Source: Desulfovibrio sp. JY (lineage in GTDB: Bacteria > Desulfobacterota > Desulfovibrionia > Desulfovibrionales > Desulfovibrionaceae). From it: a DNA stretch of 64,000 bases. The DNA lies in NCBI GenBank assembly GCA_021730285.1, contig CP082962.1, positions 806,001 through 870,000 on the forward strand, in the 5' to 3' direction. A program made the translations under genes and the position numbers. This document shows, one piece after another, positions 37,358-38,308 of the stretch. Below the pieces are notes generated by a model. That model was not told the origin of the DNA. It ran no database searches and worked only from the letters and a program-made list of their open reading frames with translations. How positions within the stretch are numbered: the stretch's first letter is position 1; every line of letters starts with the position of its first letter.

Positions 37358-37450
37358 ATGAGCATGAACGATTTAGCCATCATTGCCGGCGCGATCGTGG
37401 TTTTGGCCCTGATCGGATTCGTTTTCTACAAGCGGATCATCAAGAATTGA
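37358..37450 (+). CDS. 30-residue single-span membrane peptide
   Basis: MSMNDLAIIAGAIVVLALIG is followed by FVFYKRIIKN: one hydrophobic helix of about 20 residues, with a short Asp-containing N-terminus and a Lys/Arg C-terminus, so the positive end is predicted inside. The start has GGGAG 8 nt upstream. A perfect 15-bp hairpin follows 9 nt after the stop. Small membrane peptides of this kind often act as regulators or subunits of larger membrane complexes; the partner is unknown. Confidence 0.65.
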   Translation: MSMNDLAIIAGAIVVLALIGFVFYKRIIKN

Positions 37451-37549: not shown

Positions 37550-38203
37550 TCAGGAATAGACGGACCCGTCGAAACGGTCGTTGAGCCCAAGGGCCAGCCG
37601 TTTGGCCGTGATGTGGTCGCTGATGGCTTCGGCCACCCGGACCGGATCGGGCCCCGCAAGCGTCCCCGTCCCGGAGATGGCCGGCAAGCCGGCCCGGGAC
37701 AGTTCGGCGACAAGCCCGCCGGCCGTCGGGCCATGGCCGGCCGCAAGTTCCCGTGGCGACAGGTCCGCCGCGAGGCTGGTGGCCGCGGGCAGATCGGCGA
37801 TTTCCACGCCAAGCGCCGCCGCCAGGGCGGCGAAAAAGGCCAGCAACCGCGCGCCATCCTGGTCCCCGTCCACGGGCAGCACCGGGGAAATGCCGAGATG
37901 ATCGCAAAAATCCGCCAGCCCCGAGCCGGCCTCCGCGACGCCGGCCGGCGTGAGCAGCCCGGCCTGTCCCATGGCGCTTACCGCGCCGCCCGTGGCGAGC
38001 ACCAGAATATCCTGCCGGATGAGTTCCCGGGCCAGCCCGGCCGCGACACCGCCATGCCCGCCTTCGGGCACGGCGTCATCGACGATGCCGACCAGCCCGC
38101 GCACCATGCCGATGGAAAGCGCCTTGCCGAGCATGTCCGGCATGCCGCCGCCGACCATGGTCGCGGCCTCGTTTGGAAAAACGGTTTGTTGTTCCATGCC
38201 CAT
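37550..38203 (-). CDS. CODH (CooS) C-terminal-domain-like protein lacking cluster-C cysteines
   Basis: 217 residues aligning with only the C-terminal domain of Ni-Fe carbon monoxide dehydrogenase (full CooS is about 640). Shared sequence: GMVRGLVGIV, LARELIRQDILVLATGG, AGLLTPAG, SGLADFCDHLGISPVLPV, LGVEIADLP, ISGTGTL and the SDHITAKRLALGL end. In CODH-II three cluster-C ligands (Cys446, Cys476, Cys526) lie here; they are replaced by Asp, Gly and Asp, and the first two keep the 30-residue spacing. It cannot be a CO dehydrogenase. It is not a cut gene: the ATG at 38203 has GGAGG at the right distance. It lies downstream of a CooA-like gene and operator, so a CO-related accessory or regulatory role is inferred. 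Confidence 0.75.
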   Translation of the reverse strand: MGMEQQTVFPNEAATMVGGGMPDMLGKALSIGMVRGLVGIVDDAVPEGGHGGVAAGLARELIRQDILVLATGGAVSAMGQAGLLTPAGVAEAGSGLADFCDHLGISPVLPVDGDQDGARLLAFFAALAAALGVEIADLPAATSLAADLSPRELAAGHGPTAGGLVAELSRAGLPAISGTGTLAGPDPVRVAEAISDHITAKRLALGLNDRFDGSVYS

Positions 38204-38292
38204 GCCGTCCTCCGGTATGTTGCCGCCAGCCGAAGCAGCGCGGCCGATTGATGCAAGCGGGTCAAAATTTACTTTTTTGTTGAAATCGTGTC

Positions 38293-38308
38293 TGTCAGAC
38301 AGCTGACA
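38293..38308 (-). promoter_or_regulatory. CooA/CRP-type operator upstream of the CooS-like gene
   Basis: TGTCAG-ACAG-CTGACA is a perfect 6-bp inverted repeat with a 4-nt spacer, 90 nt upstream of the CooS-like start. It resembles the TGTC(G/A)-type palindromes bound by CooA regulators. The adjacent regulator gene is the obvious partner. Confidence 0.65.

Follow-up and report, generated by a model that had tools for sequence, protein, structure and literature searches.

What keeps a sulfate-reducing bacterium in possession of the C-terminal end of an enzyme whose metal ligands have gone? The question is raised by a short gene in a stretch of 64,000 nucleotides from Desulfovibrio sp. JY (GenBank assembly GCA_021730285.1, contig CP082962.1, positions 806,001 to 870,000 of the forward strand), referred to here as the window. 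Carbon monoxide dehydrogenase (CODH, CooS) is an ancient metalloenzyme, and the gene, hereafter called the stump, encodes a stand-alone derivative of its C-terminal domain. It lies next to cooA, the gene of a CO-sensing activator, and behind a CooA-type operator. The sequence comparisons and structure models presented here lead us to regard the stump as probably, though far from surely, a non-catalytic protein under CooA control that derives from the Rossmann-like C-terminal domain of an ancestral CODH and would act by binding. Its apparent retention suggests that part of a known enzyme has taken on a new task other than catalysis.

A CODH C-terminal domain without its cluster-C cysteines

The initial annotation, made from the sequence of the window alone, had described a complete gene of 217 residues homologous to the last third of CooS. 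This description is confirmed by matches to positions 407-595 of the CooS profile TIGR01702 (E 1.5e-23), to the Pfam family Prismane/CODH (E 4e-12) and, in the PDB, to the CODH of D. vulgaris (E 1.1e-28 over residues 8-208). The frame runs on the minus strand from an ATG at 38203-38201 to a TGA at 37552-37550 (Table 1). With 82.8 bits against a curated TIGR01702 cut-off of 478, the protein falls outside CooS as this profile defines it. About 400 N-terminal codons are missing in comparison with CooS; the N-terminal cysteine motif and the middle domain with the other cluster-C ligands are absent.

For the residues of the active site we assume the CODH-II numbering of Cys446, Cys476, Cys526 and Lys563, the columns having been placed by alignment to CooS proteins of the genus. 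At the three cysteine positions the stump carries Asp43, Gly73 and Asp114, as the initial annotation had stated. The first two are 30 residues apart, again as stated there, and Gly73 and Asp114 are separated by 41, equal to the CooS proteins of the genus (41 counted by eye on the alignment). The histidine of the PVLH motif is replaced by Pro110, and the segment EWYSEKAAAIG, which contains Lys563, is mostly deleted or changed. The stump product would be expected to hold no Ni-Fe cluster.

Structure prediction with AlphaFold2 gave models of the window stump (predicted local distance difference test, pLDDT, 72.2; predicted template modelling score, pTM, 0.76) and of a second stump from the genome G223 introduced below (75.3 and 0.76). 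Both have their best match in the same enzyme: the former aligns to residues 415-629 of D. vulgaris CODH (6vwy_A; Z 25.6, root-mean-square deviation 2.3 A over 188 residues), the latter residues 411-628 of the same enzyme (7tsj; Z 20.3, deviation 2.7 over 176). The comparison with CODH proposed in the initial annotation thus produced the expected match, which confirms the domain and is not an independent test, because the predictor alignments (28 and 23 rows) included full-length CODHs. Confidence is low at the N-termini of both models and in the internal-deletion region of the window model. Hybrid cluster proteins are matched as well (Z about 12-13), in line with the fold that they are known to share with CODH.

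Table 1. Features of the stump locus, and one predicted CooA target elsewhere in the same genome
Feature	Position	Strand	Basis or remark
Stump gene, 217-residue stand-alone CODH (CooS) C-terminal-domain derivative	37550..38203	-	homology and structure match
Tail NDRFDGSVYS	37553..37582	-	extension also on cooA-linked full-length CooS of the genus; related form on other stumps
Asp114 codon, at the position of cluster-C ligand Cys526	37862..37864	-	alignment to CooS of the genus
Gly73 codon, at the position of cluster-C ligand Cys476	37985..37987	-	alignment to CooS of the genus
Asp43 codon, at the position of cluster-C ligand Cys446	38075..38077	-	alignment to CooS of the genus
Ribosome-binding site GGAGG, like that before cooS of the genus	38209..38213	-	5 bases before the ATG
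CooA-type operator TGTCAGCTGTCTGACA (minus-strand reading)	38293..38308	.	perfect TGTC-N8-GACA palindrome
cooA, CO-sensing CRP/FNR-type activator, 216 residues	38420..39070	-	homology to CooA 2fmy
NapH-like polyferredoxin, outside the window	G000:C1:1091865-1092836 (L105 402-1376)	-	CooA-type palindrome upstream

Stumps in five genomes of the family

Among 288 genomes of the family, 119 match the stump protein, and stumps were found in five, in each case with cooA alongside and a CooA-type operator in front. These are the window genome (G000) and the genomes G262, G259 (Solidesulfovibrio alcoholivorans DSM 5433), G223 and G196, the last two from two other genera. The G262 stump (210 residues, 75% identity to that of the window) has an open frame in the same place; the cooA-linked full-length CooS proteins of the genus share 48-54% identity with the window stump. 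The stumps of G223 and G196 (207 and 213 residues) are 43% identical to each other, are convergent with cooA and possess none of the three cysteines. In G259, Cys446 is kept, with Arg and Asp at positions 476 and 526, and the internal deletion is a different one.

The residues at the three ligand positions of the five stumps are D/G/D, G/D/G, C/R/D, S/Y/A and A/K/P. Cys476 and Cys526 are therefore lost in 5/5 and Cys446 in 4/5, with differing replacements, and none of the five retains more than a minor part of the Lys563 segment. A conserved substitute ligand set was rejected on these differences; since the substitutions are not conserved, the shared trait is the loss of the ligands. The initial annotation had called for orthologues with the same substitutions: orthologues exist, in G262 and as three more stumps, and their residues differ. 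It had also named frameshifted fragments as the outcome that would speak against a real gene. All five frames are open, free of frameshifts and internal stops, including that of the G262 orthologue.

In G269, which has an intact operon, the gene order is cooA-cooS-cooC, followed by a small open reading frame of 30 residues on the opposite strand. G000, G262 and G259 show cooA, the stump and the same small frame, and cooC is missing. In a search limited to the stump loci, the best window match to the CooC of G269 had an E value of 0.044, so that no cooC was recognised in the window, and the values at the other loci were 0.27 (L033), 1.7 (L034), 0.59 (L067) and 6.8 (L068). The small frame, at 37358-37450 (+) in the window, encodes a single hydrophobic stretch (MSMNDLAIIAGAIVVLALIGFVFYKRIIKN), with identities of 83% to G262, 66% to G259 and 55% to G269.

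For the census, the 119 matching genomes were examined for short open frames. Of the 28 loci L005-L032, 27 encode at least 560 CooS residues and the remaining one is a case at a contig end (G249). Most of the other matching genomes were judged by open-frame length alone, an imperfect guide, as the G262 stump lies within an open frame of 523 codons. Candidates at contig ends (G249, G278 and, from the order-level search, G345) were set aside, as were those in G222 (C23, C54) and G160, which belong to longer CooS-like stretches; the stretches of G222 are split over several frames. A match in G243 that starts 7 bases from a contig end was left out, and a third match in G225 gave no match with the queries used. 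The order-level search of 348 genomes added no further stump among the matches listed. As a separate observation, G222 (L070 1-4700) carries a cooS beside cooA and cooC that is split over several frames, through real decay or a draft assembly error.

A conserved tail as candidate contact

The window stump ends in a tail that also occurs on the full-length, cooA-linked CooS proteins of the genus (NDRFDGAVYS and similar) and, as HDRYSGEIFS, at the end of a CooS-like protein of G004. The stumps of G223 and G196 share a tail of their own, WCDRCGGRFSPFS (L067 8363-8401, L068 8168-8206), and end in CDRCGGRFSPFS; its 13 codons differ only synonymously, as read by eye. No such tail is present on the full-length CooS proteins of G115 and G031, the genomes with the closest CooA to that of G223 and G196. 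The conserved tail would be the best candidate for a contact site, and the stump may bind a protein partner, probably through this tail and the side formerly turned towards the other parts of CODH.

The shared G223/G196 tail contains a CxxC motif, a possible metal site. This motif bears on another explanation, by which the domain has been re-used as a small protein that binds a metal or other ligand: either the vacated pocket, whose loops are rich in Asp and Gly, or the Cys pair in the tail (WCDRCGG) would take up another metal or a small ligand for CO storage, scavenging or sensing. In G000 and G262, Asp-rich loops do lie where the cluster-C ligands used to be, but no substituted residue at these positions is common to the five stumps and the Cys pair is absent from the Solidesulfovibrio tails. 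We regard such a function as very improbable.

Predicted control by CooA

The cooA gene adjoins the stump upstream on the same strand, and its product matches CooA 2fmy with an E value of 4.8e-46. It keeps the THTRA stretch, which we take to include the heme-ligand histidine. The operator is centred 97 bp before the stump ATG, between the two genes, and is the only TGTC-N8-GACA sequence in the window. In 233,481 bases of DNA from the genus (the window and nine coo loci) there are ten, one per stretch, and all ten are intergenic, separating cooA from cooS or the stump. The palindrome precedes 5/5 stumps and 7/7 full-length cooS loci of the genus that were examined; downstream of a second cooA in G265 (C151), near a contig end, none was found in the following ~250 bases. 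The operators of the stumps are near the Desulfovibrio CooA consensus given in PMC545781, TGTCGGCNNGCCGACA, and the sites of G223 and G196, TGTCAGCCAGCCGACA, are identical to the D. desulfuricans cooSC site published there. A start, a ribosome site and a probable CO-type operator of its own, as claimed for the gene at the outset, are thus all present. The stump is predicted to belong to the CooA regulon, and its CO-dependent expression is predicted from the operator only: CO reaching the cell would activate CooA, which would switch on the stump gene.

In the complete genome G223 the pattern TGTCNGNNNNCNGACA occurs in one place, the stump operator, and the reversed control pattern in four. Because its operator is the only such place, the stump is the likeliest effector of the CO sensor in G223, where it might serve, e.g., as an adaptor or inhibitor of a CO-sensitive enzyme or a former CODH partner enzyme. 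The same facts bear on the idea of a co-regulator, in which the stump, made under CooA control, binds CooA itself in a feedback loop that sets CO sensitivity. The stump adjoins cooA in 5/5 genomes in two different orientations, the cooA genes of G223 and G196 are sisters across genera, and G223 offers no other TGTCNGNNNNCNGACA place; however, inheritance from the ancestral operon may account for the adjacency in Solidesulfovibrio, and in G223 a loop without any other target would give no output. We consider a co-regulator improbable.

Hosts without another CODH

The window genome is a single contig of 4,686,982 bases with a completeness of 100. A search of it with the stump protein returned the stump itself and no other CooS, and a CODH profile search gave the stump and one weak match of the size of a hybrid cluster protein. 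The initial annotation had suggested interaction with a full-length CooS; as the genome has no other CooS, a partner of this kind in the same cell was rejected and the interaction is impossible there. The same profile search detected no other CODH in G262, G223 and G196 (G262 and G196 are drafts of ~80 and ~40 contigs), so that 4/5 stump genomes are without one. The exception is G259, with a separate full CODH (703 bits). In this genome a palindrome, TGTCGGCTAGCCGACA, lies at G259:C10:85259 upstream of the cooC of the second, intact CODH locus, with cooA on a different contig; it is identical to the D. vulgaris cooSC CooA site published in PMC545781. Of 109 CooA-positive genomes, five (G029, G136, G140, G141, G169), identified by eye, have CooA without any CODH-like match, and some of these five matches may be CooA paralogues.

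Selection on the reading frame

Between G000 and G262 the stump shows 24/35/53 differences by codon position, with a synonymous divergence (dS) of 0.372, a nonsynonymous divergence (dN) of 0.147 and a ratio of the two (omega) of 0.40. In a codon branch model the G000/G262 tips have an omega of 0.234, the background branches one of 0.063, and omega=1 is rejected (twice the log-likelihood difference, 2dL, 41; p 1e-10). The result holds under F1x4 codon frequencies (0.367, background 0.116; p 4e-6) and equal frequencies (0.446, background 0.169; p 1e-4). In neutral simulations under three mutation settings, nonsynonymous changes were as few as observed in 0, 0 and 2 of 400 runs. The open frame alone proves little, because 78 to 96 of 400 neutral runs stayed stop-free. 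The stump frame is therefore under purifying selection since the split of G000 and G262, at odds with neutral codon evolution. Together with the structure match and the open-frame orthologues, the rejection of omega=1 supports the original view of a selected, non-catalytic protein and not debris. The stumps of G223 and G196, compared over 207 codons, differ at 86 first, 70 second and 135 third positions; the unequal G+C contents of the genes, 60% and 42%, inflate the third-position count.

These numbers bear most directly on slow decay as an explanation. The stump would then be the remnant of a coo operon that lost its function, with most of cooS and cooC deleted and too little time gone by for the rest to vanish; the operator would be baggage, and cooA would be kept for another target such as a NapH-like polyferredoxin. 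The operator, ribosome site and start resemble those of cooS in the genus and may simply be inherited, and the split cooS beside cooA in G222 indicates that decay may occur in the family.

Several further points weigh against a selected protein. Stumps are rare, occurring in 5/288 genomes of the family. Selection is relaxed, with omega at the stump tips 2.6-3.7x the background under the same models and a pairwise value of 0.40 vs 0.05-0.35 in seven neighbouring genes, and the window codon tests rest on one species pair, G000/G262. For G259, a draft genome with an estimated contamination of 8%, omega is 0.18 and 0.493 under the first two models and 0.88 under equal codon frequencies, where it does not differ from 1; as the result depends on the codon model, the G259 stump may be decaying or debris. 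Finally, the spelling TGTCRGCNNNYYGACA finds, beside the stump place in G223, one more inside a gene, and palindrome scans with such restricted spellings could miss weaker CooA targets.

Against decay stand the rejection of omega=1 at the G000/G262 tips under three models, rarely matched by neutral simulations, and the purely synonymous differences in the tail of G223 and G196 at 43% overall identity. In addition, these two genomes have the stump in convergent orientation to cooA, and still it retains a separate CooA operator. Decay is thus, in our judgement, an unlikely though not far-fetched account of the stumps as a whole.

Further predicted CooA targets

With the first pattern, TGTCNGNNNNCNGACA, the other stump genomes scanned gave five (G000), five (G262) and eight places (G196), against 2, 2 and 4 for the reversed control. 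The five in G000 are the stump operator, a site upstream of a NapH-like polyferredoxin gene and three inside genes. A first scan of ten genomes with another spelling added single places. Places at G196:C9, G223:480409, G000:355052, G000:3395444, G000:3516359 and G000:4261513 were set aside because they lie inside open frames.

The palindrome is found 125-140 bp before the NapH-like gene in G000 and G262. Such genes occur in 138 genomes; TGTC-N8-GACA is present upstream of 10 of the 50 loci examined (10/30 searched within 400 bp, 0/18 and 0/2 within about 540-660 bp), a count in which the close relatives G000 and G262 represent one event, the G267 site is poorly spelled and G278 has no CooA match. 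Among the NapH-like loci without a site are those of G223 and G196 and, G267 excepted, those of all other genomes in the genus that carry CooA. The NapH-like polyferredoxin is likely a further member of the CooA regulon and the second predicted target in the window genome. Its G004 homologue (49% identity) directly follows cooA and the operator and precedes a degenerate CooS of full-length size (L110 6144-7997, 617 residues). This CooS has no N-terminal Cys motif, has lost the cysteines of LCCTGNE and reads HSQNP for HGHSP, while it keeps Cys446/476/526 and an EWYTEK segment; it is possibly a full-length relative that does not oxidise CO.

Probable repeated origin of stumps

A LysS tree of 13 of the 14 genomes of the genus (G268 was dropped, as only 89 residues were found) places G269, with its intact operon, with G270 and G259 on a branch supported at 95/99, apart from G000/G262. 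The separation of G269 and G259 from G000/G262 recurs in a cooA DNA tree (100/100) and in a wider CooA protein tree of 32 chosen sequences (96/92). A single ancestral truncation for all Solidesulfovibrio stumps is disfavoured, as it would need a lost cooS to be restored; because G269 groups with G259, these stumps arose at least twice if such restoration is impossible. The distribution of the five stump genomes on the CooA protein tree requires three changes, which well-supported branches impose; this means three origins if truncation is irreversible. The CooA proteins of G223 and G196 are sisters (100/99) despite the different genera; transfer of the cooA-stump pair between genera would be the simplest reading of this, not proof.

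More tentatively, cooA and a cluster-less CODH C-terminal domain may form a self-contained CO-response module with the domain as effector. It is possible that coo operons were reduced to this module in parallel, on at least three occasions, that it outlived the loss of CO oxidation, and that the form in G223 and G196 spread between genera.

Relation to known systems

We found no description of a cysteine-less CODH C-terminal-domain protein in the open-access literature, subscription papers being outside the scope of the search. Surveys of CODHs apply length criteria, excluding proteins below 550 residues (PMC6344411) or 400 residues (PMC8776680, PMC13240472) or using a length above 400 residues as one criterion (PMC13056359), and because of this, stump-like proteins would tend to drop out of them. 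What is new here is an enzyme-derived, probably non-catalytic protein within the known CooA regulon. If metal-free, single-domain derivatives of the enzyme are indeed selected and recur under a CO sensor, part of the CODH scaffold would have a further function in responding to CO that involves no catalysis, and the presence of CooA in some bacteria that have no CODH at all would be accounted for. S. alcoholivorans DSM 5433 is a named strain and directly testable, but of the five stumps its own is the most doubtful.

Four systems invite comparison, and of the deviant CODHs described in the literature covered here, CooS-V and mini-CooS come closest. With CooS itself (TIGR01702; D. vulgaris 6b6v/6vwy) the window stump shares the C-terminal Rossmann-like domain, at 40% identity over 188 aligned residues of 6vwy, and the linkage to cooA and a CooA operator; unlike CooS, it is without the N-terminal two thirds, the three cluster-C cysteines of the domain and most of the Lys563 segment, and its window has no cooC. 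The degenerate CooS of G004 likewise lies downstream of cooA and a CooA operator and carries a tail resembling those of the stumps, but it is far longer, retains the three cysteines and EWYTEK, and is separated from cooA by the NapH-like gene. The mini-CooS of Thermosinus is also a small CODH-like protein; as described in PMC8776680, it has a complete metal-cluster motif and is filed with clade G, whereas the ligands of the stump are lost. Finally, CooS-V of Carboxydothermus, according to PMC9311411, is CODH-derived, has a changed cluster ligand and does not oxidise CO, as is predicted for the stump. In contrast to the stump, which is a single domain with no cluster-C cysteine left in it, CooS-V retains the full-length scaffold, in which the exchange of Cys295 to Glu at cluster C goes with an Fe/S/O cluster.
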